A stretch of 64,000 bases of DNA from assembly GCF_036322805.1 (NCBI RefSeq), contig NZ_AP027272.1, forward strand, positions 1,984,001-2,048,000. Direction: 5' to 3'. A program made the position numbers and the translations under genes. Each line of letters opens with the position of its first letter. The stretch's first letter is position 1. Source of the stretch: Planctobacterium marinum. GTDB taxonomy: Bacteria; Pseudomonadota; Gammaproteobacteria; Enterobacterales; Alteromonadaceae. Below, one piece after another: positions 12,617-61,132 of this stretch. The notes under the pieces are model-generated. The model ran no database searches. It saw only the letters and a list, made by a program, of their open reading frames with translations, and was not told where the DNA came from.

Positions 12617-12957
12617 TCTATGTCTCCTTTATTCAGATGCTGTTTTAATCGAATCAGACGTTCATCCCACTCTTCAGCAATGGGGGCTAGCCATTGAAAG
12701 GCCCCACTAAAAGCATAGTGTTTTAAAAAATGGCGTTTCTCTTTGCCCTTAAATTCGGCTTTGACAGCTCCGGATTTAACCAGAACATTCAGGTGTTTAG
12801 TTACTGCTTGCCTTGAAATGCCAGTATCGGCGGTTAACTCTTTTATAGATAATCCCGTTTTTGCAGCCTGATAACTACTGAGTCGCTCAATTATATTGCG
12901 CCGTGTCGGGTCGGCCATTGCTTGAAATATATCCATCTGAAAGTGGTAAATTGTCAT
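12613..12957 (-). CDS. ArsR family winged-helix transcriptional regulator
   Basis: 114 residues with an ArsR/SmtB fold: FQAMADPTRRNIIERL, a helix-turn-helix segment LTADTGISRQAVTKHL, and the wing GAVKAEFKGKEKRHFL. There are no Cys or His clusters of the metal-sensing kind (no ELCVCDL), so it is probably not a metal sensor. It is first in a two-gene operon with the AHSA1 protein and starts 15 bp from a perfect palindrome, which suggests autoregulation. The start ATG gives a normal-length N terminus. Confidence 0.9.
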   Translation of the reverse strand: MTIYHFQMDIFQAMADPTRRNIIERLSSYQAAKTGLSIKELTADTGISRQAVTKHLNVLVKSGAVKAEFKGKEKRHFLKHYAFSGAFQWLAPIAEEWDERLIRLKQHLNKGDIE

Positions 12958-12972
12958 TCTGTGAGTTTATAT

Positions 12973-12992
12973 ATGCAACCCAATGGTTGCAT
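12973..12992. promoter_or_regulatory. Candidate ArsR operator palindrome
   Basis: Perfect inverted repeat ATGCAACC-CAAT-GGTTGCAT immediately upstream of the ArsR gene. The half-site GCAACC with a 4-bp centre fits a symmetric ArsR-dimer site; its place between the promoter region and the start codon suits repression. Confidence 0.7.
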
Positions 12993-13102
12993 GTCAAGGT
13001 TTTATGTGGAAAAAGTGAATAAATGCGCTGTATAGGTTTTAACAATGTGGCGCTTTGTGCCAAAATTTGTCGCGGAATTATTAAAACAATATTGGAACTC
13101 CT

Positions 13103-14635
13103 ATGTCTGACACTACCTGGGTGACCCGCGCGCTAGATAAAGTAGAACGCGTTGGTAACAAACTCCCTGATCCCGCCGTAATCTTTTTAATTAGTCTGGT
13201 TATTGTTTGGGTACTCTCAGCGTTGCTTTCGGGCGTGCAATTTGATGCCATCGACCCAAGAACTGGCGAGGCTGTTGTAGTCAACAACTTATTAACGGGT
13301 GCATCGCTCGCTGATTTTCTGTCGCGCATGGTGACTATTTTTACTGGGTTTGCACCGCTTGGCGTAGTGTTAGTGGCTATGTTGGGAGTCGGTGTAGCTG
13401 AGCACTCTGGCTACATCAACGCTGGCTTGAAACGTATGTTGGATTCAACGCCTAAAATGCTTTTGACTCCCTCGGTAATTCTAATCGCTATCGTTAGCCA
13501 CACGGCAACCGATGCAGGATACGTGCTTGTTATACCCTTAGCAGGTGTCATTTTTTATGCCATGGGCCGACATCCATTAGCAGGTATTGCTGCTGCTTTT
13601 GCTGGTGTAAGTGGCGGCTTCAGCGCCAACTTTATTCCTTCAGCGATTGATCCCTTATTGCAAAGCTTTACTCAAAGTGCTGCACACATTATCGATCCGT
13701 CGGTGCAGGTGAATCCATTGAACAACTGGTTCTTTAATTCGGCTTCCAGTTTGTTGATCATTTGTGTCGGCTGGTATCTGACAGATAAAGTGATTGAGCC
13801 TCGTTTAAAAAATACGCCGGTGGATGGCGACCCTAACGAAATCCCTAAATTTGAAGATCTCAACCCGCAACAAAGTAAAGCCTTGCGTTTCGCTACTTTT
13901 ACAATGTTAGCGGGCATTGCTTTATTAGTGGCAATCCTCATCCCTGAAAACTCTCCAATGCGCGCTCCTGACGGCGAGCTTACTTCTTTCGCCGCACCGG
14001 TAATGCGCTCAATCGTGCCGCTTATTTTCTTGTTGTTTGTCATTCCGGGCGTCGTATACGGCTACATGGCAGGTACCTTTAAAACCACAAAAGATGTGAT
14101 TGGGGCCATGTCTAAGGCGATGGGCAGTATGTCCTACTATGTGGTAATGGCGTTTTTCTGTGCTTTGTTTATTGATGCCTTTGGTAAGTCTAATCTAGGC
14201 GCTTTATTGGCTATCGAAGGGGCGCAATTCCTGAAAGCCATGAATTTACCAAGTATGGTGACCATCGTCGGGCTGATTTTCCTCACGGCTTTCGTGAATT
14301 TATTTGTCGGCTCATCGTCGGCGAAATGGGCGCTGTTGGGACCAATATTTGTGCCCATGTTAATGCAGTTGAATATTTCACCAGATTTAACTCAGGCGGC
14401 TTACCGTTTGGGGGATTCGTCTTCCAATATCATTACGCCTCTCATGCCGTACTTCCCGTTAGTGGTGGTTTATTGTCAGCGTTATGTAAAAGATACGGGT
14501 ATTGGGACGTTGCTTTCATTGATGTTACCGTTTTCTGTGACTATTATTTGTATCTGGACGGTTTTCTTATTGATTTATTGGGGCTTGGGATTGCCGTTGG
14601 GTTTACAGTCGAGCTATGTTTATCCGGCCCCTTGA
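13103..14635 (+). CDS. AbgT family transporter
   Basis: 510 residues, the usual AbgT/MtrF length, with the family-typical start (ALDKVERVGNKLPDPAVIF), VEHSGYINAGLKRML-like region (AEHSGYINAGLKRM), SHTATDAGYVLVIPLAG and NLFVGSSSAKWALLGPIF, and about a dozen membrane segments. AbgT proteins import p-aminobenzoyl-glutamate in E. coli and export sulfonamides in some pathogens; the direction here cannot be told. Start ATG follows GGAAC by few bases. Monocistronic; a GC-rich hairpin follows. Confidence 0.92.
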   Translation: MSDTTWVTRALDKVERVGNKLPDPAVIFLISLVIVWVLSALLSGVQFDAIDPRTGEAVVVNNLLTGASLADFLSRMVTIFTGFAPLGVVLVAMLGVGVAEHSGYINAGLKRMLDSTPKMLLTPSVILIAIVSHTATDAGYVLVIPLAGVIFYAMGRHPLAGIAAAFAGVSGGFSANFIPSAIDPLLQSFTQSAAHIIDPSVQVNPLNNWFFNSASSLLIICVGWYLTDKVIEPRLKNTPVDGDPNEIPKFEDLNPQQSKALRFATFTMLAGIALLVAILIPENSPMRAPDGELTSFAAPVMRSIVPLIFLLFVIPGVVYGYMAGTFKTTKDVIGAMSKAMGSMSYYVVMAFFCALFIDAFGKSNLGALLAIEGAQFLKAMNLPSMVTIVGLIFLTAFVNLFVGSSSAKWALLGPIFVPMLMQLNISPDLTQAAYRLGDSSSNIITPLMPYFPLVVVYCQRYVKDTGIGTLLSLMLPFSVTIICIWTVFLLIYWGLGLPLGLQSSYVYPAP

Positions 14636-14640
14636 TGATT

Positions 14641-14669
14641 GAAGCGGGCGCTTAATCGGCGCCCGCTTC
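14641..14669. terminator. Long GC hairpin after AbgT gene
   Basis: Perfect 11-bp inverted repeat GAAGCGGGCGC/GCGCCCGCTTC around a 7-nt loop, only 6 bp after the AbgT stop and 12 bp before the next receptor gene. No T tract; it may attenuate read-through or stabilise the 3' end, or occlude the next ribosome site (AGCGGAG). Confidence 0.5.
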
Positions 14670-14681
14670 CAGCGGAGCAAT

Positions 14682-16688
14682 ATGCTAAAGCGACAGATTT
14701 TTCATTTTGTAAGTATTTTATCAGCACTGATTGTTCCGCTTAGTCACGCCCAAGATGTTGAAGATGTCCCACTAGATAGCTTGATGGAGCTGTCTTTCGA
14801 CGAACTTTTTGATGTTGAAATCAGTATTGCGAGTATCGCACCTCGTAATATCAATGATGCCCCTTCCACGGTAAGTGTGTTTACTCGCAACCAAATAGAT
14901 GCTTTGGGTTTTCAAAATGTTCATGAAATTCTCAATTTAGTACCGGGGTTCCAGATGGCCCGTGGCGATTGGGTTGGTGCAGTGCCCAAAGAGCATGCCC
15001 GTGGTGTTTATCTGGACAATGGCTATTTATTGTTTTTGATTGATGGCCAAAGGGTCAATGAGCTGTCTTTTGGCAAAGCATCGGTTTACATGCCCTTTAT
15101 GGCATTGGATCTGGTGGAGCGAATTGAAGTTATTCGCGGCCCTGGATCGGCAATTTACGGCAGCAATGCGTTTATGGGCGTGGTAAATATCATCACCCGA
15201 AAAAGTGATAATTGGGCTCAATTGGCAATCGGCGAAAATAATGCCACTAAGTTCAACGCTGGTATTAGCTGGCAATCAGAAGAAATGAATATCAATTTAC
15301 TAGCTGATATTCGCAGCAGTGATGGCAATACCTTTAATTCATTGTCTTCGTCAGCATACAAAGACCCGTCAGAACATCAATTCTTAAGCGCTGGATTGCA
15401 ATTCAGGGGCTTGCAAGCAAATGTGCGGTGGAATCGTTCTGAGTTAGATGAGTTTATTAATTTGGGAGGGGTACATCCTGATAATGCCCATCGTTCCGAG
15501 AACATTGCCTGGTCACTTGCCTGGCAAAGTGAACTGACTGCTAAGACACAATTGTCTGTTAAAGCACAATACACTGAACATGAGATCGAATCCGGTGGGA
15601 AAGTATTGGATGCCGATAATGTTGACTTCATTGATGAAGACTTTTTAACAGGACCCTTTTGGATAACCGATGATCTTGAGTTATCACTGGACATTACCCA
15701 TCAAATTTCCGACGTGTCATTGTTGAATGTTGGGCTGGAGAGTCGCAGGGCGAGACAAACTCAAGCTGGTACTGTCACGAATTATCTTGATTTTGACAGT
15801 AATCTACTGACATTGTCTCCGGAGTATTTTCTAGGCGCTCCACAGTCTTTTGCTACCCAAGGCGTTAATGCGGTATCGCCCTTAATTTCCAAGCAAGATA
15901 CGCGCAGCGTATACGTACAATACAGCTACCAAATAAATGAGGCTTTTGATATCTACATCGGTGGACGCTACGATGATGTTGCCGACATAGATTCAAAGCT
16001 ATCCCCAAGAGCATCATTTAAATACCAGCTCAATGAGCAAAATAGTATTAAACTGCAATATGGTGCGGCTTTCAGGACGCCCGTGACCAATGAGTTATTC
16101 TCTGAAGATTTGGTGACCATTGGCAACCCCAACCTGAAACCTGAAGAAATTACCACCCTGGAACTCGTATGGCAGCGTCAAGCAGAAAACAACAGGATAG
16201 AATTTGTTTTATTCAACAACGAGTTAGACGCTTTTGTGAATAAAGTGCCACTGAATAATGCCTTAGGGCAGTCTACCTTCCAAAACGTGATTAAAAAATC
16301 TATTTCTGGTGCAGAGTTGGCTCATAAATCCAGATTTAGTGATGAACTGGAGTGGTTTGTTAATGTGACATCGCTGTTTGATGAGCCAATTAATCCCAGT
16401 TATAAACGCTTTCTCAGTGCTGGCTTGGTTTGGCAAAGCGAGCTCATTCGCATTAGCTCAGAATTCTTGTGGCGGGAAGAGCTAGTGGTTGAAGATGTGT
16501 TTCAGCATGGCAGTTACTCACTTTGGAACGCCAAAGCGCATTACCAAATGTCTGCAAAGTGGTCGTTGGCACTTACCGTTAGCAATCTCTTCGACAAAGC
16601 TTATTGGGTTTATGAACCACGTCTGGCAAACAATGCGATGCCCGGCTATGGGCGTGAGACCTGGCTAGGCGCAACCTATGCGTTTTGA
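14682..16688 (+). CDS. TonB-dependent receptor
   Basis: 668 residues: signal peptide ending SHA-Q, plug domain with ASIAPRNINDAPSTVSVF, LNLVPGFQMARG, FLIDGQRVNELSFG, VERIEVIRGPGSAIYGSNA, and a barrel with the receptor signature FRTPVTNELFSEDL and NPNLKPEEITTLELVW, ending GATYAF with terminal Phe. The plug style resembles BtuB/FepA/CirA-like receptors and the shorter receptors tied to GGDEF proteins in marine bacteria. Ligand unknown. Its end overlaps the following DnaJ-related gene by 11 bp, so the two are cotranscribed despite unrelated functions. Confidence 0.92.
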   Translation: MLKRQIFHFVSILSALIVPLSHAQDVEDVPLDSLMELSFDELFDVEISIASIAPRNINDAPSTVSVFTRNQIDALGFQNVHEILNLVPGFQMARGDWVGAVPKEHARGVYLDNGYLLFLIDGQRVNELSFGKASVYMPFMALDLVERIEVIRGPGSAIYGSNAFMGVVNIITRKSDNWAQLAIGENNATKFNAGISWQSEEMNINLLADIRSSDGNTFNSLSSSAYKDPSEHQFLSAGLQFRGLQANVRWNRSELDEFINLGGVHPDNAHRSENIAWSLAWQSELTAKTQLSVKAQYTEHEIESGGKVLDADNVDFIDEDFLTGPFWITDDLELSLDITHQISDVSLLNVGLESRRARQTQAGTVTNYLDFDSNLLTLSPEYFLGAPQSFATQGVNAVSPLISKQDTRSVYVQYSYQINEAFDIYIGGRYDDVADIDSKLSPRASFKYQLNEQNSIKLQYGAAFRTPVTNELFSEDLVTIGNPNLKPEEITTLELVWQRQAENNRIEFVLFNNELDAFVNKVPLNNALGQSTFQNVIKKSISGAELAHKSRFSDELEWFVNVTSLFDEPINPSYKRFLSAGLVWQSELIRISSEFLWREELVVEDVFQHGSYSLWNAKAHYQMSAKWSLALTVSNLFDKAYWVYEPRLANNAMPGYGRETWLGATYAF

Positions 16689-45617: not shown

Positions 45618-48600
45618 ATGACAGATGACAAAGGCCCGAAAAAACAAAAAGTCGAATCCTCAATCGAAAAACTTGAAGACCGCATTGCCCCCGGTGGTAT
45701 AGGCGGTTTGGTTGGCGATCTCGGTATTGAATCAAATGATGCCCCCACTGCAGATAATGATGGGGGCCACCTCCGGGAGGAGACGACCATCCTCCGGGAG
45801 ATGAAGGTGGCGATCCTCCTCCGGGTGGAGAAGGGGAAACGTCCGACGGTGGCAACACTGTTACCCATCCAGATGGCACGGTTGAAACTTATAACGAAGA
45901 TGGCTCTGGAAGCGTCGTTTATCCCGATGGCTCTACTGAGACGTGGGATGGTCAAGGCGGCGGCACTTGGGATGACGGTCAGGGCAATACTGCCCAATGG
46001 AGCGCCGATGGTTCGGGCTCTTGGACTTCATCAGATGGCAGTAGTGGATATCACAATGCCGATGGTTCAGGTGGTTATAACAACGCCGATGGTAGTCACG
46101 GTAGTTACAGCGCAGATGGTTCTTATAGTCATACTGAAGCTGACGGAACTATTTATCAAGGCAATGCCGATGGTTCAGGCTCGATTACTTATCCGGATGG
46201 CACCAGTGAAGCCTGGGATGCGCAGGGTAATCCAGTGGGCAGTGATTCTGGTGGCGACTCGGGGGACACTGGCGGTGAACCTCCCGCAGGTGATGGCAGC
46301 GAAGAAGGGCCGGAAACTGGCACAACCACGCATCCTGATGGCACTGTAGAAACCTGGAACGACGATGGTTCTGGCTCAGTGCAATATCCAGATGGTTCCT
46401 CGGAAACCTGGGATGGCCAAGGTGGCGGTACCTGGGACGATGGACAAGGCAATTCTAGCACCTGGAGCGCCGATGGTTCCGGAACCTGGAACAATGCTGA
46501 CGGTAGTAGTGGGTACTATAACGCTGATGGCTCTGGGGGATACAACAATGCTGATGGCAGCCACGGTGAATACAATGCCGACGGCTCTGGGTCACACACT
46601 GAGGCCGATGGCACAGCTTATACTTGGAATGCCGATGGTTCGGGTGGTGTTGAGTATGCAGATGGAAGTTCTGAGACATGGGACGGACAAGGCGGTGGTA
46701 CCTGGGATGATGGTCAAGGTAATTCCAGTACCTGGAATGCTGATGGTTCGGGCTCCTGGACATCAGCAGACGGCAGCAGTGGCTATCACAATGCCGATGG
46801 TTCCGGTGGTTACTCTAACGCCGATGGAAGCCATGGCTCCTACAGCGCAGACGGCTCGTATTCCCATACAGAGGCCGATGGTACGGTTTACCAGCAAAAT
46901 GCTGATGGCTCAGGTTCTGTCACGTACCCAGACGGTTCTGTAGACGAATGGGATGCATCGGGCAACCCTGTGGGAGACCCAGGAGATCCGAGTGACCCAA
47001 GCGGTACCGGTGGCGAAGGAACGGAATCAGGCACAACCACTCACCCCGATGGCACCGTCGAAACCTGGAATGAAGATGGCTCTGGCTCAGTTGTATATCC
47101 GGATGGTTCCACTGAAACTTGGGATGGCCAGGGCGGCGGTACATGGGACGATGGCCAGGGCAATAGCGCTACCTGGAACGCTGATGGCTCAGGGTCCTGG
47201 ACTGCATCAGATGGCAGCAGTGGGAGCTACAATGCCGATGGTTCAGGCAGTTACACTAATGCCGATGGTAGTTACGGTTACTGGAATGCCGATGGTTCCG
47301 GAAGTCATACTGAGGCTGACGGCACTATTTACCAATTCAATGCTGACGGTTCGGGTTCAGTGACTTATCCGGATGGCACAACAGAAACCTGGGATTCTTC
47401 TGGCAATACAACCAGTGGTGATCCTGCGGGAGGTGAAGGTACCGATACAACTCATGGTCCTTATGGAGACATCGTTGATGAACAGGTGGCCGAAGATGGC
47501 TCTACGGTTTATACCTATGCCGATGGTACGGTCGAAACCATGAATGCCGACGGTTCGGGCAGTGTGGTATTTCCAGATGGTTCCACTGAAACCTGGGATG
47601 GACAAGGTGGTGGCACGTGGGATGATGGCCAGGGAAATAGCTACTCATGGAATGCCGATGGTTCGGGCAACTGGACGTCATCCGATGGTAGCAGTGGTTA
47701 TCACAATGCCGACGGCTCAGGTGGTTATGCCAATAGTGACGGTAGCCATGGAACCTATGGTTCTGATGGTTCATACACTCATACTGATGCAGACGGTACG
47801 GTATACCAACAAAATGCGGATGGTTCTGGCTCAGTAACTTATCCCGATGGGACTATGGATACCTGGGATGCCGATGGAACCTATCACAGTGGTAGCGAAC
47901 CCGGTGAGGGAAGCGAAGGCACTGATACAACTCATGGTCCATATGGAGACATCATTGATGAGCAGGTGTCCGAAGATGGCTCAACGATCCTTACCTATGC
48001 CGATGGTACGGTCGAAACCATGAATGCCGACGGTTCGGGCAGTGTGGTATTTCCAGATGGTTCCACTGAAACCTGGGATGGACAAGGCGGCGGCACCTGG
48101 GACGATGGCCAGGGCAATAGTTACACCTGGAGTGCCGATGGCTCTGGGAGCTGGACATCTTCCGATGGTGGCAGCGGCTACTACAATGCCGATGGTTCGG
48201 GTAGTTATACCAATGGCGATGGTAGTCACGGCACCTACGGCTCTGACGGCTCATATACTCACACTGATGCAGACGGAACGGTATATCAACAAAATGCGGA
48301 TGGTTCCGGTTCAATTACTTATCCCGATGGCACTATGGATACTTGGGATGCTGATGGAACCTATCACAGTGGCGGCGAACCTGGTGCAGAAACTGAAGAG
48401 CATGGTGGTATTGTCGACGAGCAGTTCAATGAGGACGGCTCTGGTACGGTAACCTATGCCGATGGCACAGTAGAAACCTGGAATGCCGATGGTTCAGGCA
48501 GTACTGCCTACCCCGATGGCAGCTCCGAGACCTGGGATGGTGAGGGCAATGGTAGCTGGTCTGATGGCCAGGGAAATTATGGCAATTATTACGCTGACGG

Positions 48601-49702
48601 ATCCGTTGCCTGGACATCTGCTGATGGTAGTACTGGGTATTACAACGCCAGTGAAGGACAGGGTGAGTATCAAAATGCCGACGGCAGCAGTGGTACCTGG
48701 AGTGATGATGGCTCCTTCACCCATACGGATGCAGACGGCACTGTTTACCAACAGAACGCTGATGGTTCAGGTTCGATAACGTACCCAGATGGAACCGTAG
48801 AAAATTGGGAGGCAGGCGAAGCACCTGAAATGCCAGAAGGTGCTGGGCCGCAAGGCGGGCCCGATGGCTTTAATGAAGCTGATGAACACGGTGGTGTTGT
48901 GGATGAGCAGTTCAACGAGGATGGCTCGGGTACCATAACTTATGCCGATGGTACAATAGAAACCTGGAATGCTGATGGTTCAGGTAGTATTGCCTACCCT
49001 GATGGCAGCTCCGAGACCTGGGATAACGAGGGCAATGGTAGCTGGTCTGATGGCCAGGGAAATTATGGCAATTATTACGCTGACGGATCCGTTGCCTGGA
49101 CATCTGCTGATGGTAGTACTGGGTATTACAACGCCAGTGAAGGACAGGGTGAGTATCAAAATGCCGATGGCAGTAGTGGTACCTGGAATGATGATGGTTC
49201 CTTCACCCATACGGATGCAGACGGCACCGTGTATCAACAGAATGCCGATGGTTCGGGTTCTATAACGTACCCAGATGGGACGATGGAGACATGGGAAGCC
49301 GGGGATGCACCTGAAGGACACGGTGATTCTGGGCCCGATGGAGAACCCGGTGATCCGGGCTCATACGGTACACCACCACCGGACCCAAATGGTTATGTAA
49401 ACGAATTTATCTTACCTCTCTTTGAAGGGGGGAGTGATCCGGCTGAATGGGGACTTGACTATGATGAAGACGGCCCAACCAGTTGGACGCTGCCGATAGA
49501 TATGGGAGATGTTGACCTGGGTAGCAGTACATTTGTCATTTCAGGTGACATGGTAGGTGAATGGGAAGGAGGTATCCCACCTGAAGCAATTGGTCCTGAC
49601 GCTGATGGTAATTATACCATTCAGAGCTGGCCTATTGCCGAAGTAATTGATAATGGTGATGGAACTATCACCCTGATTTTTGAAACTGAAGAAATGCCTT
49701 AA
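45618..49702 (+). CDS. Giant D-G-S-G repeat protein, probable secreted cargo, frameshifted near its start
   Basis: With one frame correction it would encode about 1,361 residues. The first frame (from ATG 45618) gives about 50 residues including SSIEKLEDRIAPGG, then goes out of frame at a GGGGG run (45762-45766); in the -1 frame the sequence continues as a Pro/Gly linker (PPPGG, HPPGD) and then unbroken repeats to 49702. Eight copies of a roughly 120-160 residue block carry ETWDGQGGGTWDDGQGN or a variant; inside it short units of the type NADGSGS[WY] recur every 8-10 residues. Composition is Asp/Gly/Ser/Thr rich, no Cys, strongly acidic: a Ca2+-binding or matrix protein is a guess. A non-repeat C-terminal part (about the last 100 residues) ends the protein. 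Not a family I recognise. Confidence 0.75.
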
Positions 49703-49736
49703 TCGGCAAACGTTAAAACTGATTGGAGAATTAATT

Positions 49737-49865
49737 ATGGCTAAAATCACAAAAGCTGATCGCGTAAAACAAAGAGCATTAGCTGCGGTTGCTGGTGCAA
49801 AGGTAAATGGTTATAAGTTAGCTGCCAAAGCGCAGGCAGCCAAGGCTAGAGCTAACGCAAAGTAA
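49737..49865 (+). CDS. 42-residue Ala/Lys-rich small protein
   Basis: MAKITKADRVKQRALAAV opens a 42-residue protein with tail KAQAAKARANAK: strongly basic, Ala-rich, likely one amphipathic helix. GGAG lies 8 bases before the ATG, 34 bp after the repeat-protein stop, so it is cotranscribed. It could be a chaperone-like partner, a counter-ion for the acidic repeat protein, or an exported peptide; none is shown. An IS element sits 9 bp after its stop and has moved away what looks like its terminator (51190-51218). Confidence 0.65.
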   Translation: MAKITKADRVKQRALAAVAGAKVNGYKLAAKAQAAKARANAK

Positions 49866-49924
49866 CTTATCAACTGTCTCGTCCTAAAATACGTTGACGT
49901 TTTATGCAGGCCGGTAGATTTTAT

Positions 49925-50794
49925 CTATCGGCCTTTTTCGTAATGCACCTGGTTAGGTGTTTTCATTCTCAAACTCAAGTGCGGCCTCATCTCATTGTAG
50001 ATGTATATCGATTCATCCACGAGTTGCTTTAATTCCCGCCTATTCTTGCACTGATGCAACAAGAACTCCTGCTTTAGTATGCCATTGATTCTTTCTGCTA
50101 AGGCATTCTGATAGCAATCATAACCATCGGTCATAGATGGAGTAATGTTGTGATTTCTCAGGACAGCCTGATATTCCTCAGAGCAATATTGCACTCCTCG
50201 GTCTGAGTGATGAATCATTGGATGGTTATAGTACTTATGCTTGATACTCATATTGAGTGCCTTAACCACATCTGTTGCTTTCATTTCATCGCTGAGTTCA
50301 TACCCCATTATCTTTCGGGAATATGCATCCGTTGTTAATGATAAATAGTGCGTACCCGCATCTGACTTCACGTAGGTAATATCACTCACAAGCACATCCT
50401 CAGCCTGTTGAGGTTGATAGTCCTTCAGTAGATTCGGGTGCTTTTTCATCCAGTGACGGCTGTCGGTTGTTTTTGTGTAACTACGTTTGGGTTTAACCAA
50501 CATGCCTTCTGCGCGTAAATAATCAAACAGTCCATCACGCCCCAACTTAATGCCAAGTTTATCAAGCTCTGGTTTCATCAGTTGGTAGAGCTTTCGAGTC
50601 CCAATCCGCGGCATGTACTGGCGCCAATACAGCACCATGTCCTTAACCGGCATTAGCCTCTGCTGCTTATCGTTAAACCGCTTAACCCACTGATAAAGCC
50701 CTTGAGGTGTAAATCCGAATAGGCGACAACAACGAGCTAGCTTTCTTCGTTTTTCAACTTTTCCCGCCCAGAGAGCTTGTCGTAGTACTTTTTT
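49925..50794 (-). CDS. IS3-family transposase OrfB (via -1 frameshift from OrfA)
   Basis: The DDE integrase core: Asp in SDITYVKSDAGTHYL, Asp in HHSDRGVQYC and Glu in NALAERINGILKQEF. An internal ATG at 50653 starts the downstream part, but the frame is open up to 50794, where A-AAA-AAG (minus strand, 50788-50794) is the classic IS3 slippery heptamer, so OrfAB is made by slippage as the transposase. About 290 residues from the slip site. Confidence 0.9.
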   Translation of the reverse strand, partial: KKVLRQALWAGKVEKRRKLARCCRLFGFTPQGLYQWVKRFNDKQQRLMPVKDMVLYWRQYMPRIGTRKLYQLMKPELDKLGIKLGRDGLFDYLRAEGMLVKPKRSYTKTTDSRHWMKKHPNLLKDYQPQQAEDVLVSDITYVKSDAGTHYLSLTTDAYSRKIMGYELSDEMKATDVVKALNMSIKHKYYNHPMIHHSDRGVQYCSEEYQAVLRNHNITPSMTDGYDCYQNALAERINGILKQEFLLHQCKNRRELKQLVDESIYIYNEMRPHLSLRMKTPNQVHYEKGR

Positions 50795-51138
50795 CTGTAG
50801 TTACTCCCACACTCGTTATCAACACGGGTTACTACCTCTTCCAGAACATCAATTTTGAGTTCAGCATCAGCTAATGCGCGTTCTAAACGCTTAATCTTTT
50901 GGGCGGGTGTTTCGTTGGATTGAGACATAAGTGAATGCATCAAAGGCTCAGACCAATCCAGCTTACCATGCTTTCGTAGCCAGACGAGAACTGTACTTCG
51001 GCCTTGAATGCCAAAGTGCTTTTGAGCTTGTTTGTAGGTGAAGTCGCCTTTTTCGACTTGCGCTACAACGGCCAATTTAAAGCCTAAGGTGTAATCACGT
51101 TGAGTTCGTTTAACGCGTTGTTTATCTGGGTTTCTCAT
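50737..51138 (-). CDS. IS3-family OrfA (helix-turn-helix)
   Basis: 133 residues from ATG 51138 (AGGA a few bases before; a farther ATG at 51162 is inside the terminal repeat). The N terminus has an HTH for terminal-repeat binding (YTLGFKLAVVAQVEKGDFTY, AQKHFGIQGRSTVLVWLRKHG) and the C terminus a leucine zipper-like coil (IKRLERALADAELKIDVLEE). Overlaps OrfB in the -1 frame. Confidence 0.88.
   Translation of the reverse strand: MRNPDKQRVKRTQRDYTLGFKLAVVAQVEKGDFTYKQAQKHFGIQGRSTVLVWLRKHGKLDWSEPLMHSLMSQSNETPAQKIKRLERALADAELKIDVLEEVVTRVDNECGSNYRKKYYDKLSGREKLKNEES
50788..50794 (-). other. Programmed -1 frameshift heptamer
   Basis: A-AAA-AAG in the OrfA frame (codons AGA AAA AAG); slipping back one base joins OrfA to the OrfB frame, as in IS3-family transposases. 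Confidence 0.8.
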
Positions 51139-51189
51139 AATAAGTCCTAAATGTGTAAACACATTTCAGGACGGGACAAACGATGAACT

Positions 51190-51218
51190 AAAAAAGGCGG
51201 GAATTTCCCGCCTTTTTT
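51190..51218 (+). terminator. Intrinsic terminator displaced by the IS
   Basis: GGCGGGA pairs with TCCCGCC around ATT, flanked by A and T runs. It stands just outside the right IS end; without the 1,304-bp IS and duplication it would be about 15 bp from the small-protein gene, so it probably ended the repeat-protein operon. Confidence 0.85.
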
Positions 51219-51287
51219 ATTGCAATAAAAATCTTCTTTTTTGTTTATTACTTCTATACTTAGATTGTTGAGTTTCAGTCAGGAGTA

Positions 51288-51311
51288 ATGGGTTTCCAAT
51301 ATGGTAAATAG
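51288..51311 (+). other. Possible 7-codon upstream ORF
   Basis: ATG at 51288 reads MGFQYGK then TAG and has the best ribosome site here (AGGAG at 51281-51285), but it is out of frame with the GAF-HlyD gene and overlaps its first ATG. It may couple translation or be chance. Confidence 0.3.
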
Positions 51312-53295
51312 AACCAGAGTGCAGGGCTCTAAGACCATGAGTAAGGAGGTTAGTGAGTTAAATCGCAAAATAAAAATCCTCTCCACTTCTCGAAAATTAA
51401 CCCATGAATTCATTGGCCAGGCATACGATGTTAAACATCTTATGCAGATTGTGTTCGATCGAATATTGAATGCGCTGGATGCTGAAGCAGGTTCTTTCTG
51501 GGTCAAAGATGAAAAAAGCAAGCAAAATGTCTGTCAACTGGCTGAAGGCCCGGTTAAAAACGAAGTGATTGGCCTAAAACTCGATTTTGGCGTCGGTATC
51601 GTTGGTACTGTAATTGAAACGCAAAAATCAAAAATCATTCTCAATTGTGCCCGCAGTAAAGAATTCTCTCAAACTGTTGATAAGAAAACCGGATTTATTA
51701 CTCGCTCCATGATATGTGTCCCCCTGATTATTGACGATCAGGCTTACGGCGCAATTCAAATCGTCAACAAAAAGCACGGTGTCGATGGCCAGTTTGATAC
51801 CAATGACTGTGAGTTGGTGAAAGACCTGGCGGTAAGCGCTGCAATATCAGTCAAGAATGCCCGATTGATGGAGATGGAAAGCAAAGTCAAGGAAATGAAC
51901 GCGCTGATGAGTATCTCCAATGAGGTGGTATCCTCACTGGATATAGATCAGGTACTCAATCTGGTGGTTAACCGTACCAATGAGTTAGTGGATCTCTCCC
52001 TTGGTGCTATTGCGTTATTGAATGACGATCAGACGCTCTCGATGAGTGTTATATCCGGTGGCCAAAAAGTCGATGCCGCAGATGCCAGACAAGTTGCAAT
52101 GTTGGCATTAATGAAACAGGTACAAAACCTCGGACGCTCGGTTTACGTCGCAGATCGCGAACGCTACATCGCCAGTCAAAAAGGCAAACTGAACGATTGG
52201 GTTAAGTATTTGCGAGCACATGACGTACAAAGTCTTTGGTCTATCGCTATCAGGGATGAGGAAGGCGTTTTAGGAGTATTGTGGTTTGAAAGTACAAGTC
52301 CTCATTTCGCCGATGGCGGTAAAGGCGACCTTCTGCACATCATGGCCTCTCAAGCGACAGTCGCGCTGCGCAATGCCAGCTTGTTTAATAGCATCACCAA
52401 TCGCCAGTCGTTAAAAGGTTTAAAAGACGCAACGATTAAGTGGTTTAAAAACAAAGGCCAGCGCGCGGCTATTATTGCTGTCACACTTGCTACTTTGATA
52501 TTGAGTTTTCATTTTCTACCGGTTTTGCGTTGGGTTTCAGCCCCGACAACCGTAGAAACGCAATTAGGTCGAGGTATTTTCACTCCAGTAGACGGTCGGA
52601 TCAGCAGCATTCTGGTGCGTGAAGGACAATCCGTAAATGCTGGCGACGTGGTGGCCGAGTTAGATAAGACCACAATACAGCTTGCCCTGACTGAGGCTCA
52701 GGCACAAATGGCGATAGCGGAGCGGCAGATTGTTGAGGCTCGGGCTGAAAAAGACAGTTTCGCTTTATCCAATGCCATTATTCAACGAGAATCCACCTTG
52801 GCTAAGGTGGTCAAATTGCAAAGTGATTTAAGTAATACAGAAATCGTAGCTCCCATCTCCGGTGTCGTGCTAAATACCAATGTTGGCGAATTGATGGGAC
52901 GTTTTTTTGGGCAAGGCACCGAGATTTTTCGCATCGCCAATCCCGATAAATTCCGACTCGTGGTGCATGTTGCTGAAGAAGACATCATGGATTTGCAACT
53001 TGAGCAAGATGTCAGGGCCGTGCTACGAGCCCGTCCGGGGGAATACGTATATGGCAAAGTCCTACATGTTGGGCGGTCTTATGAGGTACCTACCACCATT
53101 CTCGAAACAGAGGAGGAGGTTGATACCAGCGAACTAAAAACCGGTTTTGTGGCGGAGGTGTTGATCACTCGTTCTGATTATAAAGTACTTCCCGGCATGA
53201 CCGGACAGGCTTTGATATATACGCCAGAGACCTCCGTAGTTCAGCGCTACTGGCGCAGATTGCGCAACTTCTTTATCTACACATTTGGGCTGTAA
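51301..53295 (+). CDS. GAF-GAF-membrane-HlyD fusion protein
   Basis: 664 residues joining a cytoplasmic sensor to a periplasmic adaptor. GAF 1 (about 30-190: DRILNALDAEAGSFWV, CVPLIIDDQAYGAIQIVN) and GAF 2 (about 200-370) precede one membrane segment (about 385-405: AAIIAVTLATLILSFHFLPV). The rest is an HlyD/RND-adaptor: lipoyl-like halves (FTPVDGRISSILVREGQSV and APISGVVLNTNVGEL), alpha hairpin and beta barrel, with a PGMTGQALIY end. ATG 51301 used; ATG 51337 (MSKEVSELNRK) is the alternative. First gene of a four-gene operon with the M50, MFP and TolC genes. Confidence 0.88.
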   Translation: MVNRTRVQGSKTMSKEVSELNRKIKILSTSRKLTHEFIGQAYDVKHLMQIVFDRILNALDAEAGSFWVKDEKSKQNVCQLAEGPVKNEVIGLKLDFGVGIVGTVIETQKSKIILNCARSKEFSQTVDKKTGFITRSMICVPLIIDDQAYGAIQIVNKKHGVDGQFDTNDCELVKDLAVSAAISVKNARLMEMESKVKEMNALMSISNEVVSSLDIDQVLNLVVNRTNELVDLSLGAIALLNDDQTLSMSVISGGQKVDAADARQVAMLALMKQVQNLGRSVYVADRERYIASQKGKLNDWVKYLRAHDVQSLWSIAIRDEEGVLGVLWFESTSPHFADGGKGDLLHIMASQATVALRNASLFNSITNRQSLKGLKDATIKWFKNKGQRAAIIAVTLATLILSFHFLPVLRWVSAPTTVETQLGRGIFTPVDGRISSILVREGQSVNAGDVVAELDKTTIQLALTEAQAQMAIAERQIVEARAEKDSFALSNAIIQRESTLAKVVKLQSDLSNTEIVAPISGVVLNTNVGELMGRFFGQGTEIFRIANPDKFRLVVHVAEEDIMDLQLEQDVRAVLRARPGEYVYGKVLHVGRSYEVPTTILETEEEVDTSELKTGFVAEVLITRSDYKVLPGMTGQALIYTPETSVVQRYWRRLRNFFIYTFGL

Positions 53296-53298
53296 TCC

Positions 53299-55371
53299 TT
53301 GAGTGCCATACCCGCACCGCTGAGGGAAGAAGTCAAAGTTCGTCGCTTTGTGCAGCAAGGTGACGTCAGCTTCGTGGTAAAGGAGCCGGATAAACAAGAG
53401 TATTACCGGTTTAGTGTGCCGCAGATGGAGCTGATAAAGTTATTTGATGGCGTGCACGATCTCACTGCCATTGTTGCACGCTTTAATGAAACTTCAGAAT
53501 TGTATGAATTTGATGTGGATGCCGCAGAGTCGGTGTATCACGCCTGTAAAGATTACCAAATACTGAAACGCACCAAGCAAGAAGAAAATGTCGCGCTATT
53601 GGAGCGCATCAAAGATGAACGTAAAAAATCGCTAATTCAGGCAAAAGGCAGCGTCTTGATGATGCGATTTCAACTGGTTAATCCCAATAAGTGGTTTGAC
53701 AGTATCATCGAATCCATTCGATTCATGTGGTCAGCGCAAGCGTTAAAATTACAAGCGGGCTTTATTCTACTGGCCTTTATCACGATATTGTTTAACGCTG
53801 AACGTTTTGCTCAAGATTTTACTCAAGTTTATCTGCAAACTCAGCTCAGTGGTGTGATTTATATCTGGATAATCGCACTTTGCGCCATTGCATTGCATGA
53901 ATGCGGTCATGGACTCACATGTAAGTATTACGGCGGTGACGTGCATGAAATGGGGTTTTTACTGCTGTGCTTCCAGCCCTGTTTGTATTGTAATGTCAAC
54001 GATGCATGGCTGTTTGAAAACAAAACCCACAAAATTCAGGTAGCCCTTGCCGGCGTTTGGGTGGAGCTCTTATTGGCGGCGTTAGCGACTATGATCTGGC
54101 TACTGGTGGATGTCTACAATCCCATTGGTTACATAGCATTCGTGTTGATGACCATTGGCACGGCAAGTTCCCTATTGGTAAACCTCAACCCTTTGCTCAA
54201 ATTTGACGGCTATTACATTTTGACTGATTGGCTGGAAATGCAAAATTTACGACAAAATGCCTTGGCCTGGTTTTCATGGAATCTTAAAACTACACTCTTC
54301 AATAGTGACGATGAAAAGCCCCTTAATCCAACCCCAAGGGAGAAACGAGTTTATTGGATTTATGGCACGGCGGTGGCGGTATATATGACCCTTATGCTGT
54401 CGTTTATCGCCTGGTTAGGATATCAGTTTGTTTATACTCAGTTGGGCTTCTTCGCCATTTTAGGCTTTTTGTATCTTGCCTATCGGTTGATTAAATCCAT
54501 TACAGGAAATTGGTTGATGACAATTGTGCAATGGGCCCGACTGCATCTGTGGCAGGGGCGGAAAAGGAAAATAAGAACCTCAACTGGTGGTTTTGTTGCT
54601 CTATTGGTTGCGATTTTTTGGCAACCCCACCTGACCCTATATTCCGACGGAGAAATCGCGGCGGATACTCATGTTGTATATAGCCCCGCTAATGCCTTTG
54701 TGGTCAATGCAAATTATTCAGATAGAAGAAAATTGGAGTTACAAACAGGGGAACCATTCCTGCAAATGGCCTCACCTGAACTGACCATATTAAAGCAGGA
54801 ATTAGAAGCGAGACAGATGGAGCTGCAGGGGCAAAAGGTTGCAGCCATGCTTGAAAATGAATCTTCCCCTCAGGCGAGATTGGCTATTGAGCTCGGACTG
54901 GTGGCAGAAAAACTATTGTCTACAGAGCAGAAATTGCATTCCTTGCAGGTGAATGCACCTGAGGGTAACTGGTCTGTGGAAGGTTTATCACCTGATCTCA
55001 TTCAAGGGCGTTTTTTCTCAGAGCAACAAGAAGTGCTAAGACTGTTGTCAGAGGATGGTCGCTACTTTGATGCCATTGTTGATCAACGTGATGTGTCCTA
55101 CCTGTCACCCGGAGACAAAGCTAAAATTAAACTCAATGCTCAGCTAAGTGACGTATTAGATGCTGAAATTCAGGTGATTTCTGCACTGGCTAAATCTGAT
55201 GGTGTCGAGCAAAAAGTGTTGGTACGCATGGTGATTGACGGGTGGGATAATGATGACTATCTACCGGTGGGAATAAGTGGTGAGGCTAAAATCTACGGGG
55301 AAAAGCGCCCCCTCTGGCAGCATTTTATTTTTAAAATAAGAAAGTTCTTTAGAGCGGATTTATGGTTGTAA
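53299..55371 (+). CDS. PqqD-like / M50 metallopeptidase / HlyD-like fusion
   Basis: 690 residues; TTG start 3 bp after the previous stop, with no nearer ATG. Residues about 12-95 look like a PqqD-type winged helix (RiPP recognition element): VSFVVKEPDKQEYYRFS, IKLFDGVHDLTAIVARFNE. From about 150 there are roughly eight membrane segments with the zinc site ALHECGHGL (His/Glu near 199) and the distal NPLLKFDGYYI (Asp near 303), the M50 site-2 protease pattern. The C-terminal part (about 450-690) is adaptor-like (VYSPANAFVVNANY, SYLSPGDKAKIKL) with no clear lipoyl domain. A membrane protease combined with an adaptor; substrate unknown. Confidence 0.85.
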   Translation: MSAIPAPLREEVKVRRFVQQGDVSFVVKEPDKQEYYRFSVPQMELIKLFDGVHDLTAIVARFNETSELYEFDVDAAESVYHACKDYQILKRTKQEENVALLERIKDERKKSLIQAKGSVLMMRFQLVNPNKWFDSIIESIRFMWSAQALKLQAGFILLAFITILFNAERFAQDFTQVYLQTQLSGVIYIWIIALCAIALHECGHGLTCKYYGGDVHEMGFLLLCFQPCLYCNVNDAWLFENKTHKIQVALAGVWVELLLAALATMIWLLVDVYNPIGYIAFVLMTIGTASSLLVNLNPLLKFDGYYILTDWLEMQNLRQNALAWFSWNLKTTLFNSDDEKPLNPTPREKRVYWIYGTAVAVYMTLMLSFIAWLGYQFVYTQLGFFAILGFLYLAYRLIKSITGNWLMTIVQWARLHLWQGRKRKIRTSTGGFVALLVAIFWQPHLTLYSDGEIAADTHVVYSPANAFVVNANYSDRRKLELQTGEPFLQMASPELTILKQELEARQMELQGQKVAAMLENESSPQARLAIELGLVAEKLLSTEQKLHSLQVNAPEGNWSVEGLSPDLIQGRFFSEQQEVLRLLSEDGRYFDAIVDQRDVSYLSPGDKAKIKLNAQLSDVLDAEIQVISALAKSDGVEQKVLVRMVIDGWDNDDYLPVGISGEAKIYGEKRPLWQHFIFKIRKFFRADLWL

Positions 55372-56129
55372 TGAAATTTATATTCACTTTTGTACTGCTG
55401 ATAGGTACACAATTGGCATTAGCTGATGCCCTTACGTCAGTGCACCTGCGAGGCGTTGTGGTGCCAGCGCAACAGGCCAAACTATCCGTTGCGCAACAAG
55501 GGCAGGTGGAGTGGATTGCTGCAGATGGCACAGAAGTGAAGACAGGTGAAACCCTTATTCAAATTAATGCAACAAAGCTCAAAGCAGAGATGATTCAGGC
55601 GCAGGCTATGTATCAGTCGGCCCTTGCTGAATTGGCGGCAGCGAATCACAGCCTGGAAAAAAGTCGTCGTTTGGTACAGGAGAATATACTATCTGATATC
55701 GCTCTTACGGAAGCTGAGTTTTCGGTAAAAACCGCCGAAGCGAAAGTGGCGGTCAATCAGTCAAAATTAGAACTGGCAAAACTGGCGGTGGCACAAGCAA
55801 TAGTTTTAGCCCCCTTCGATGGTGTGGTGGCCAGTAGTAAGATTTCCATTGGTGAGTGGGCGCAGCCCGGAGATCCGATTTTGGAATTTGCCTCCTTGAG
55901 CACATTGAGTATGTCGCTGGATGTGCCTCCTGAATATACTGAGACATTATCTCCCGGAGACAGCACAACCGTTTTATTTGCTGGCAAACCTATTGGAACT
56001 GCGACAGTAAAGCGTTTGTTTCCACTTTTACAACCTTCCAGCGGTTTGCGCAGGGTCATCTGGACAATAGAAACTGATGAAACCATGCTGATTTCCGGAC
56101 GTTATGTGGAGCTTAAAGCATGGTTTTAA
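55371..56129 (+). CDS. RND/HlyD-type periplasmic adaptor
   Basis: 252 residues with a Sec signal (FIFTFVLLIGTQLALADA), lipoyl domain (LSVAQQGQVEWIAADGTEVK), an alpha-hairpin (LAELAAANHSLEKSRRLVQ), the second lipoyl half (VLAPFDGVVASSKISIGEW) and a barrel (MSLDVPPEYTETLSPGD). It should bridge the inner-membrane parts to the TolC-like channel. ATG 55371 shares TAATG with the M50 stop; an earlier in-frame ATG exists. Overlaps the TolC-like gene by 10 bp. Confidence 0.9.
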   Translation: MKFIFTFVLLIGTQLALADALTSVHLRGVVVPAQQAKLSVAQQGQVEWIAADGTEVKTGETLIQINATKLKAEMIQAQAMYQSALAELAAANHSLEKSRRLVQENILSDIALTEAEFSVKTAEAKVAVNQSKLELAKLAVAQAIVLAPFDGVVASSKISIGEWAQPGDPILEFASLSTLSMSLDVPPEYTETLSPGDSTTVLFAGKPIGTATVKRLFPLLQPSSGLRRVIWTIETDETMLISGRYVELKAWF

Positions 56130-57373
56130 GGTCTGTCAGGTTTTTGGTGTTCAGCGTTTTGCTGATAGTTGAATTGGCCAGTGCCGAGACCTTAGAGGAA
56201 GTATTAAACAAGGCATTTAAGCAAAACCTGGATTATCAGATTGCCCTTGAGCAATTGCAAACCGCCTACAATAATGAGCGCACCGCCTTTGGTCAGCTAT
56301 TTCCTGACCTTAACCTTACCGCAAATCGCAATGAACAACTGAGTAATAATCAGCAGCTACTTAACAGCAGTGATTATTCTGCTCGACTTGAGCTAAGCCA
56401 GGTGTTGTATGACCCTGCCGTGTGGCATGCCTGGAAAGTGAGTGAGCTGCGCACATTGACTGCTGAGTTGGCTTACTTGCGACAAAAACAAATTTTGGTG
56501 TTTAACGTCAAGCAGACTTGGTTCCAACTGATTACTGATCAGGCGCTCTCAAAAGAAGCCCAAGCTTCTCTGGAACGCCTGAAACAACACCGCAATAATG
56601 CTCAGCATTTGTATGCTAATGGCAAGATATGGCGCAATGATTTACTGCAAGCTGATGTACGCGTGGCACGTGGAGAGCAGGCAAGGTTGATAGCAGAGAA
56701 TACGGTAAAACGAACTTTGACCAATCTGAATGTGCTACTGAATCAAAATATTCTGGTTGATATAAAGCCGCAAGAGCAAGCTTACGAGTTGAACTCGACT
56801 GCGCAGCTAGGGCAGAGTTTAACCACTGCACTAGCAAATCGCCCCGACCTTAAACAGCTTCAAGTAGCTGTTCAAATTGCTCGCAACGAAAAGCAAAGCG
56901 CCCGTTCGGGTTACTTTCCCAAACTGACTGCACGGCTCACGCAAAATCACCTCTCCGAACAGTTTGACTTTGCAGACTCCTCAAGAAATACCCAACTTAG
57001 TATTAATATGAATTGGACCTTGTGGGATAATTTCTCCATCCGCAATCAGAATCGCAACGCACTTCACGCCATCGAAATCGCGCAAAAAAGCTATCAGCAA
57101 ACCAGAGAATTGGTGCAACAGGAAACTCATAACGCCTGGCTGGCATTGCAAGAGGCAAAACAAAACATAGCGGTATTGGAGCAGGCGGTTGATCAGGCCG
57201 AAGAAAACTTTCGAGTAACGGAAATTCGTTACAAAGAACAATTGAGCACTGCGAATGATGTTTTGGATGCACAAGACTTGTTAACCAGCACACGCAATGA
57301 TTTATTAGCCGCCAGAGGCGACTTTTTTACCGCATTAGCACAACTAGACTTTGCCATGGGTGTTGCAAAATAA
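56120..57373 (+). CDS. TolC-like outer membrane channel protein
   Basis: 417 residues with a signal peptide ending ASA-E and two tandem OEP repeats of long alpha-helices (LEEVLNKAFKQNLDYQIALEQ; ALANRPDLKQLQVAVQIARNE). It forms the outer-membrane exit of a tripartite exporter. Last gene of the GAF-HlyD/M50/adaptor operon, overlapping the adaptor gene. Shorter than TolC but normal for type I secretion channel proteins. Confidence 0.91.
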   Translation: MVLRSVRFLVFSVLLIVELASAETLEEVLNKAFKQNLDYQIALEQLQTAYNNERTAFGQLFPDLNLTANRNEQLSNNQQLLNSSDYSARLELSQVLYDPAVWHAWKVSELRTLTAELAYLRQKQILVFNVKQTWFQLITDQALSKEAQASLERLKQHRNNAQHLYANGKIWRNDLLQADVRVARGEQARLIAENTVKRTLTNLNVLLNQNILVDIKPQEQAYELNSTAQLGQSLTTALANRPDLKQLQVAVQIARNEKQSARSGYFPKLTARLTQNHLSEQFDFADSSRNTQLSINMNWTLWDNFSIRNQNRNALHAIEIAQKSYQQTRELVQQETHNAWLALQEAKQNIAVLEQAVDQAEENFRVTEIRYKEQLSTANDVLDAQDLLTSTRNDLLAARGDFFTALAQLDFAMGVAK

Positions 57374-60772: not shown

Positions 60773-60847
60773 TGGCTGGGGTAGCTGGATTTGAACCAAC
60801 GAATGGCGGGATCAAAACCCGCTGCCTTACCGCTTGGCTATACCCCA
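60773..60847 (-). tRNA. tRNA-Gln (UUG)
   Basis: Minus-strand cloverleaf starting TGGGGTATAGCC, anticodon TTG in GGTTTTGATC, T-loop GGTTCAAATCC, CCA encoded. Identical to the next copy. 75 nt. Confidence 0.96.
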
Positions 60848-60881
60848 ATAGATAACAGCATACGCTGCTATCTAAAAAAGG

Positions 60882-60956
60882 TGGCTGGGGTAGCTGGATT
60901 TGAACCAACGAATGGCGGGATCAAAACCCGCTGCCTTACCGCTTGGCTATACCCCA
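60882..60956 (-). tRNA. tRNA-Gln (UUG), second copy
   Basis: Same sequence as the copy at 60773-60847, spaced by 34 bp, with encoded CCA. Confidence 0.96.
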
Positions 60957-60964
60957 ACAATGTA

Positions 60965-61050
60965 TGGTGCGGAAGGAGAGACTCGAACTCTCACGCCGTG
61001 AAGCACTGGAACCTAAATCCAGCGTGTCTACCAATTTCACCACTTCCGCA
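60965..61050 (-). tRNA. tRNA-Leu (UAG)
   Basis: Minus-strand class II tRNA beginning TGCGGAAGTGG, anticodon TAG in GGATTTAGGTTC, a long variable arm (TGCTTCACGGCGTG), T-loop GTTCGAGTC and encoded CCA. 86 nt. Confidence 0.95.
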
Positions 61051-61055
61051 GAATT

Positions 61056-61132
61056 TGGTGGCTAAGGCGGGACTCGAACCTGCGACCCCATCATTATGAG
61101 TGATGTGCTCTAACCAGCTGAGCTACTTAGCC
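61056..61132 (-). tRNA. tRNA-Met (CAU), elongator
   Basis: Minus-strand GGCTAAGTAGCTCAGCTGG..., anticodon CAT in CACTCATAATG, T-arm GGTTCGAGTCCC, acceptor GCC and encoded ACCA. Lacks the initiator-type C1-A72 mismatch and three-GC anticodon stem. 77 nt; first of the cluster. Confidence 0.95.

Follow-up and report, generated by a model that had tools for sequence, protein, structure and literature searches.

A proposed exporter operon with no pump found beside it

What does a bacterial operon export if it encodes periplasmic adaptors, a membrane protease and an outer-membrane channel but no ABC or RND pump, and what drives the passage? The question is raised by a locus at positions 45618-57373 of a 64,000-nucleotide stretch of Planctobacterium marinum DNA (contig NZ_AP027272.1, positions 1,984,001 to 2,048,000 of the forward strand; hereafter the window), which is part of a 4.87 Mb genome in a single contig. 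On comparative sequence grounds we propose, with a probability of roughly 0.7, that this locus encodes a two-membrane exporter whose substrate, the cargo, is a giant acidic protein, secreted or displayed at the surface, with a short N-terminal tag of the LE-x-[RK] type (here LEDRIAPGGIGG). Four genes make up the proposed exporter:

51301-53295, plus strand: GAF-GAF-HlyD adaptor of 664 amino acids (aa); Pfam GAF_2, GAF, HlyD_D23 and HlyD_3
53299-55371, plus strand: fusion of a PqqD-like domain, an M50 membrane zinc protease and an HlyD adaptor, 690 aa; residues H200, E201, H204 and D303
55362-56129, plus strand: HlyD/RND-type periplasmic adaptor, 255 aa; TIGR01730 (RND_mfp) above cut-off, Pfam HlyD_D23
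56120-57373, plus strand: TolC-family outer-membrane channel, 417 aa; Pfam OEP at E 6e-56, NCBIfam type_I_sec_TolC under cut-off

An earlier reading of the letters alone, hereafter the original prediction, had called these genes tightly coupled and assigned them to the GAF, M50, HlyD and TolC families; the intergenic gaps of +3, -10 and -10 bases bear out the former, and Pfam and NCBIfam matches the latter. In the M50 fusion, where an HlyD stretch is also matched, the Pfam M50 score of 22.0 bits lies below the gathering score of 27.2, but the HExxH residues and the aspartate of the FDGY motif (D303) are invariant in all 50 aligned relatives. The "two or three" adaptors of the original prediction come to three adaptor domains, one apiece in three exporter proteins, and not to two.

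A profile of 50 members of the M50 fusion family, when searched against PDB, recovered MacA/MexA-type adaptors, the PqqD structure 3g2b (positions 15-103, E 5.2e-4) and the archaeal site-2 protease 3b4r (E 7.3e-4). The AlphaFold2 model of the fusion, with a mean predicted local distance difference test score (pLDDT) of 86.4, has N-terminal elements in the order beta-beta-beta-alpha-alpha-alpha, as in PqqD. A Pfam scan gave no PqqD match in the window copy; a paralogue in locus L021 shows a weak one (E 0.0044). By its winged-helix-like fold in the model and its sequence similarity to PqqD, the N-terminal part is a predicted domain of the PqqD type, that is, a recognition element (RRE) of the kind found in pathways for ribosomally synthesized and post-translationally modified peptides (RiPPs), and the RRE-like domain originally assigned to this protein is retained. 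By the HExxH and the downstream DG motif inside its membrane core, the protein is likewise a predicted site-2 protease. A Foldseek search of PDB with the model gave adaptor-type entries among the 50 matches listed, which were uninformative for the M50 core. A separate search of the model against viral folds gave no match below E 0.001, and a search for an M50 relative in phages found none. The fusion is 52% identical to a protein on a Thalassomonas contig, and at least 571 relatives were confirmed across many phyla, 80 of which were kept.

A tagged, acidic and repetitive protein as the probable cargo

Upstream of the exporter lies the cargo gene, which is read in two parts:

45618-45770, plus strand: N-terminal frame of the cargo, beginning MTDDKGPKKQKVESSIEKLEDRIAPGGIGGLVGDLG, with the tag LEDRIAPGGIGGLVGDLG at 45672-45725; the tag is conserved in loci L018, L019, L020, L054 and L180
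45761-49702, plus strand: repeat part of the cargo, in a frame other than the tag's, with DG[S/T] mostly every nine residues and a non-repeat C-terminal domain near its end

The giant repeat protein of the original prediction stands as far as its repeats are concerned, which lie far beyond chance: DG[S/T] occurs 79 times in the repeat frame against a mean of 7.0 and a maximum of 13 in 200 shuffles, and is spaced by exactly nine residues in 61 of 78 cases. As a gene it is frame-broken in the window, with the ATG and LEDR tag in one frame (from 45618) and the repeats in another, the break falling in a G/C-rich stretch near 45760-45790; two congeners (G001 and G002) have a single-frame cargo at the same place, of 1,075 and 1,066 aa. 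The repeat frame (1,155 aa) contains 217 aspartates and glutamates and not one lysine or arginine, and Pfam labels its repeats Tcp10_C (14 stretches).

An AlphaFold2 model of the last 437 cargo residues, built with five relatives, has a mean pLDDT of 71.8 and a predicted template modelling score of 0.39, the two repeat blocks reaching about 90 and the C-terminal domain lying mostly below 50. One short strand per nine residues gives a single-layer beta-meander, and the repeats are predicted to fold as a single-layer beta-sheet. The top PDB matches of this model are the TCP10 domains of CPAP/SAS-4, followed by MORN proteins, OspA variants and designed propellers; the alignments mostly have a large root mean square deviation, those with Drosophila SAS-4 giving 4.5 A over 138 columns.

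The six LEDR-tagged cargos have their N-terminus in common, and the C-terminal domain of the window type is absent from those of L020, L054 and L180. Across seven cargo N-termini the highest 15-residue Kyte-Doolittle mean is 0.9-1.7, which is low by the usual yardstick for the core of a signal peptide. A second LEDR-tagged repeat protein (1,622 aa) occurs in congener G002 (L180, 8347-13215), on a contig other than the exporter's and with its own small basic peptide at 13254.

Probable exporters and tagged giants across genomes

Searched against 40 genomes (its own included), the window's cargo tag gave matches with E 1.2e-10 or better in the four genomes that carry a close exporter. In G032, a fifth genome with an exporter, a paralogue adjoins the genome's own tagged giant, and one additional match (G021, E 6.1) is no better than chance. 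Giants beside M50 fusions carry tags such as LEPRLLYSAD, LEARMLFDGA, LEPRVLLDAA, LEKRMMLDAS, LEEKIVPAG and LEQRQLLAG. The cargos of L021 and L123 pass the cut-off (17 bits) of the NCBIfam LEPR-XLL model NF012209.

The association holds in two larger samples. Of 369 genomes sampled from the window's class, 59 have the M50 fusion, and 33 of the 37 with a LEPR-XLL open frame of at least 500 aa carry it (p 1.4e-26). In the phylum sample, among the matches listed, the fusion occurs in 84 of 299 genomes and in 59 of 64 LEPR genomes (p 3.8e-36), 88 of 93 LEPR frames of at least 500 aa belong to M50 genomes, 41 of the 45 LEPR giants with a listed M50 on their own contig are no more than 10 kilobases (kb) away from it, and tagged frames adjoining the M50 reach 15,434 aa. 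The original prediction's claim of a machine devoted to the repeat protein linked with it is supported by this association, which is very strong both by genome and by neighbourhood. The longest tagged frames among the matches listed measure 19,427 (G455:C115), 15,251 (G410:C1) and 15,434 aa (G416:C1).

For these counts M50 was defined in the class sample by profile A1 at E <=1e-15, at which the low end may include a few M50 or HlyD proteins of other kinds, and in the phylum sample by a best A2 match at E <=1e-150 (G511 at 1e-58 and G564 at 2e-33 being excluded), this threshold being chosen because weaker A2 matches (239/299 genomes at 1e-15) resemble HlyD domains. LEPR denotes NF012209 matches above the curated cut-off, among the matches listed, in an open frame of at least 500 aa; without the frame filter 35 of 48 (class) and 65 of 75 (phylum) LEPR genomes have M50. 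Genomes were equated across the M50, LEPR and SecA scans (class) and the M50 and LEPR scans (phylum) on the strength of their handles.

We also read 20 class loci, one each from 20 of the 59 M50-positive genomes, chosen for long contigs: 18 have a giant, tagged in nine of them and in the other nine incomplete, with its N-terminus out of view, and no giant was seen in the remaining two (L139 and L147). Three plasmids, described here by NCBI names, repeat the pattern. One has a 12.7k-aa protein with FEPRVLLSAD, DUF3467, an adaptor, PqqD/M50 and a 'translocase'; the second has an 8.1k-aa protein, HlyD, M50 and 'SecA', with LEPRLLLAAD encoded 42 bases before the annotated start, in the longest open reading frame (ORF); the third has a 7.2k-aa protein with LEPRMMFDAA, TolC, two adaptors and the M50 fusion. 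A Rhizobium plasmid match has no giant in its gene table, which is incomplete, and a Magnetospirillum plasmid match has a 1.5-kb gene of ELWxxDGT repeats, not a giant. Eighteen Escherichia and eight Citrobacter plasmid records match the M50 fusion, over all or part of it, at <60% identity.

Several observations weigh against the proposal of an exporter for tagged giants. Exporters commonly found without a partner had been named at the outset as a sign against a dedicated machine, and to a degree this is what we see: 26 of 59 M50 genomes in the class and, among the matches listed, 25 of 84 in the phylum lack a long LEPR frame, a tagged giant was not seen near the M50 in most Planctomycetota loci and is often missing in related loci as well, and only 11 of 25 mostly non-gamma genomes with the M50 fusion have a LEPR match above cut-off. 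Conversely, four LEPR genomes of the class and five of the phylum are without M50, one of them with a 7,373-aa frame (G251). The window's own tag falls below the NF012209 cut-off (best E 0.62), and LEDR is therefore joined with LEPR-XLL by position and pattern. A first broad motif scan exceeded shuffles only about twofold (19/997 ORFs against 8); a second with a wider motif gave 25/380 same-strand ORFs against 3.9 expected, partly from related loci, and this motif also turned up on the opposite strand (12/275 ORFs against 2.3 expected). The co-occurrence statistics ignore phylogeny and genome size. Finally, because its cargo gene is frame-broken, the window copy may be dead, phase-variable or misread; pseudogene, phase variation and sequencing error may each account for the break and are indistinguishable here. 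The Planctomycetota M50 relatives were also considered as LEPR exporters and dropped, tagged giants being mostly absent nearby and LEPR present in the said 11 of 25 genomes.

A truncated SecA and the source of energy

In agreement with the original prediction, no ABC or RND pump was found near the exporter genes; the closest ABC match inside the window is 20 kb from the M50 gene. Among 101 loci, ABC genes occur within 5 kb of the M50 in three (by our own five-sequence profile) and RND in one (by a single query, drawn from that very locus), and on a known pump nearby, the other sign that had been named against a dedicated machine, the evidence is on the side of that machine. Taken together, the two signs give a mixed result. 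The counts bear directly on the possibility of a conventional type I secretion or tripartite efflux system that relies on an ABC or RND pump from another part of the genome and has the M50 fusion as no more than an accessory protease. HlyD and TolC families are common to type I secretion and efflux pumps, and the 28 PF13437 matches in the genome represent many more HlyD-type stretches, so that pumps exist elsewhere. Moreover, in L088 an ABC-like ORF lies one gene away from the M50, and L023 (G015, 8646-15172), by our reading of its sequence, combines a 355-aa M50-like protein without HlyD with a nearby 478-aa partner, an HlyD-like protein and MacB-like ABC genes, which is possibly a different use of the protease. 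Against this, pumps are rare near the M50, the M50 core itself carries a fused HlyD domain and the place of the ATPase is taken in many loci by a truncated SecA, and we regard a borrowed pump as unlikely.

The exporter for tagged giants that we favour has a candidate motor in this truncated SecA. A SecA-like protein occurs in 20 of the 107 loci that were scanned, a set to which the window belongs. The four that were tested have SecA_DEAD, SecA_PP_bind and P-loop_SecA, and the wing/scaffold family was not matched in them at E 0.01. These short SecAs end near residue 663 of full SecA: when 18 were aligned to the SecA of the window genome (899 aa), 16 had no aligned residue past 670, one a single stray and one five. 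The part beyond about 663 we take to comprise the wing, the rest of the scaffold and the C-tail. In a tree that left out L112 and L132 (a fragment and an overlong ORF), a branch supported at 100/100 sets the ten housekeeping SecAs apart from the others; there are long branches among the short SecAs (L153, L152 and L094 being flagged), and L094 joins beside the housekeeping group. By a count made by eye, at least two SecA_DEAD matches occur in 24 of the 59 genomes that have M50 and in 4 of the 310 that do not (p 1e-17), a contrast that is weakened in that some of the double counts may be split genes of drafts (e.g. G139, 67% complete). These data indicate that a truncated SecA is likely the motor in many relatives. 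One housekeeping SecA match (G083:C1:2262362) sits in a 24,580-aa open frame, perhaps a masked stretch.

In the window genome itself we found no second SecA, only one full housekeeping SecA and one weak match in a 703-aa frame. The "unknown energy route" of the original prediction accordingly still describes the window, where there is no SecA candidate, and gives way in relatives to a strong one. Because the genome is without the dedicated truncated SecA, the window form would need another source of energy. The median lysine plus arginine content of the cargo is 2.4% in SecA-less loci (n=19) against 4.8% in SecA loci (n=11; p 5e-5, kinship ignored), and the difference persists without the five LEDR cargos (p 3e-4); net charge, with the LEDR cargos removed, does not differ (p 0.64). 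This comparison is exploratory, the cargos being hand-picked and many of them partial, with L136 dropped as identical to L097. The lower content of basic residues in SecA-less cargos is a hint in the direction of a drive by membrane potential. Mutual exclusion of the truncated SecA and TolC near the M50 was considered as well and rejected (1/15 against 11/38 loci, p 0.14, counting loci with at least 6 kb at both sides).

A large protein of the PAS-GGDEF-EAL type is encoded in L122 (13279-16506, by Pfam) and in L145 (5020-8145), which suggests cyclic-di-GMP control. Together with the GAF domains and the site-2 protease, which are classic parts of signalling systems, the L122 gene could be read as marking a module for regulated proteolysis or envelope sensing that controls expression or the state of the envelope, the giant being made or exported by other means. 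Pure signalling fits poorly, however, with three adaptors, a TolC in the operon, the linkage to surface-type repeat giants and the truncated SecA, and we consider it distinctly improbable beside export of the giant through the locus.

The small basic peptide and other features of the locus

Three further features lie between the cargo gene and the exporter:

49737-49865, plus strand: small basic Ala/Lys-rich peptide, 42 aa (MAKITKADRVKQRALAAVAGAKV...), without a Pfam match
49875-51178, minus strand: IS3-like insertion element, with an rve transposase at 49925-50653 (Pfam rve) and a helix-turn-helix ORF at 50737-51162; outside the export system
51196-51212, plus strand: putative terminator hairpin GGCGGGAATTTCCCGCC with a T run, read by eye, which a scan of the sequence did not list; a similar hairpin follows the peptide in L018

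A small basic peptide is encoded 3' of the cargo gene in all six LEDR cargo loci (to which the search for such peptides was confined), with close homologues in L018 and L019 and a similar composition in L020, L054 and L180. Since it follows all six LEDR cargo genes, one of them (L180) away from the exporter, it looks like a partner of the cargo and, judged from this distribution, is probably not the processed substrate that the original prediction had allowed for.

The same distribution bears on the alternative of a RiPP-like machine, in which the M50/PqqD fusion would be a leader-peptide protease, the small basic peptide its true substrate and the giant incidental. PqqD domains are RREs of RiPP pathways, and the best NCBIfam match of the M50 fusion is to a daptide HExxH protease (E 1e-55), with the YydH/LiaK epipeptide protease next. 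However, the daptide score is 189.5 against a cut-off of 300, the locus has no gene for a modifying enzyme, and the L180 peptide gene accompanies a cargo gene on a contig that showed no exporter gene. Of the three alternatives to giant export we give this one the least credence, and the small peptide as main substrate was rejected, as it accompanies the cargo gene and not the exporter.

The cargo, the peptide and the exporter had been described as neighbours, which is correct as to the upstream position of the first two and has to be qualified by the IS3-like element. In the window this element, with inverted ends and AAC at both sides, stands between the exporter and the two upstream genes, for cargo and peptide; the corresponding gap of L018, L019 and L020 does not contain it. 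Perhaps the hairpin closes the cargo-peptide unit and has been displaced beyond the element. Elsewhere in the window four minus-strand transfer RNA genes (Gln, Gln, Leu, Met) occupy 60773-61132, for which reason a 102-aa plus-strand ORF above them is probably spurious.

In four SecA-type loci a small DUF3467 protein is encoded where the basic peptide would be expected, flanked by the genes for the giant and the GAF-HlyD protein:

L097, 7508-7816: DUF3467 protein (Pfam)
L184, 11696-12037: DUF3467 protein (annotation)
L146, 7077-7397, and L150, 7560-7877: DUF3467 proteins (likeness)

A proposed model for the export of tagged giants

We envisage that the repeat protein is kept unfolded in the cytosol, perhaps bound by its small basic partner peptide, and that its tag is read at the inner membrane by the PqqD-like domain of the M50 fusion, as its predicted fold and the association with tagged giants would suggest. 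The membrane core of the M50, whose catalytic residues are kept, may then cut the tag, serve as a gate or do both, and the three HlyD proteins would bridge this gate to TolC through their adaptor domains, with opening or assembly presumably governed by the GAF domains, in keeping with what is known of these families. In many relatives the motor would probably be the dedicated truncated SecA, given its association with these loci. In the SecA-less form of the window, energy could come from the housekeeping SecA, from the membrane potential acting on a chain nearly without basic residues, or from folding on the outside, where the nine-residue repeats would, according to the model, form a long single-layer beta-sheet.

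In broader terms, it is conceivable, if at somewhat less than even odds, that these loci define a distinct class of double-membrane secretion, whose gate is an intramembrane protease fused with a periplasmic adaptor and with a recognition domain of the RiPP type and reads an LE-x-[RK] tag on giants of up to about 15,000 aa, one branch being driven by a wing-less SecA and a SecA-less branch by membrane potential on cargos poor in lysine and arginine. The linkage across phyla ties together tag, reader domain, membrane gate and often motor, and cargo and locus become testable in culturable hosts. Should the SecA-less form prove to work with no ATPase of its own, protein secretion would have gained a new principle of energy supply. 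To our knowledge, the exit route of bacterial proteins above 5,000 aa is mostly unknown. Such proteins are unusually frequent in some bacterial phyla (PMC11573180).

Relationship to known systems

The window system resembles type I secretion (HlyB-HlyD-TolC) in its HlyD adaptors, TolC channel and acidic repeat cargo, and differs from it in having no ABC pump in the locus, an M50/PqqD fusion and a cargo whose N-terminus is conserved; type I secretion cargo usually carries a C-terminal signal. The cargo shares the nine-residue period of RTX proteins, whereas it matches Tcp10_C and the RTX Pfam domain (GGxGxDxxx nonapeptides) was not matched in it. With the daptide and epipeptide HExxH proteases (NF041824 and NF058609) the fusion shares the M50 core and an N-terminal region, aligned over residues 18-400, but it stays under the NF041824 cut-off, bears a fused adaptor and neighbours a giant, with no RiPP enzymes seen in the locus. 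In the accessory Sec system (SecA2/SecY2) of Gram-positives a second SecA is tied to giant repeat adhesins, and relatives of the window system likewise pair a second SecA with giant repeat proteins; here, unlike there, the SecA is short, lacking the part past about 663, and double-membrane parts are present, and the window genome is without a second SecA. LEPR-XLL proteins (NF012209, some with DUF4347) have in common with the window cargo a short N-terminal LE-x-R tag, very large repeat proteins and the same exporter family adjoining, while the window tag LEDRIAPGG scores below the model cut-off and is in its letters nearer to LEEKIVPAG of Verrucomicrobia.

The closest precedent is a locus with GAF-HlyD, M50, SecA_DEAD and HlyD genes, in which the M50 was proposed as a pore, in Planctomycetes, Verrucomicrobia and Proteobacteria among other hosts; the paper, which lists META1p2402-2399 of Methylobacterium extorquens AM1 as one such locus, reports that an ABC transporter was not found and calls the broader role of the secondary-SecA_DEAD locus completely unknown (Kamneva, Poudel and Ward 2015; PMC4452313). 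Since this locus type was described there, the claim that the system was undescribed has to be withdrawn. The window agrees with it in a GAF-HlyD protein, an M50 with HlyD similarity, an HlyD protein and the outer-membrane channel (OEP) that is sometimes present, and departs from it in that the defining secondary SecA is absent from the window's locus and genome; a term search of the paper's available text returned no occurrence of cargo, giant, pqqd, lepr or cadherin. The machine type is already known, though without a name, and what is added here, within the literature searched, is the cargo class, the tag, the PqqD-like reader and the SecA-less form with TolC. A locus of 2015 without a known purpose thereby gains a suggested job, the export of tagged giant proteins.

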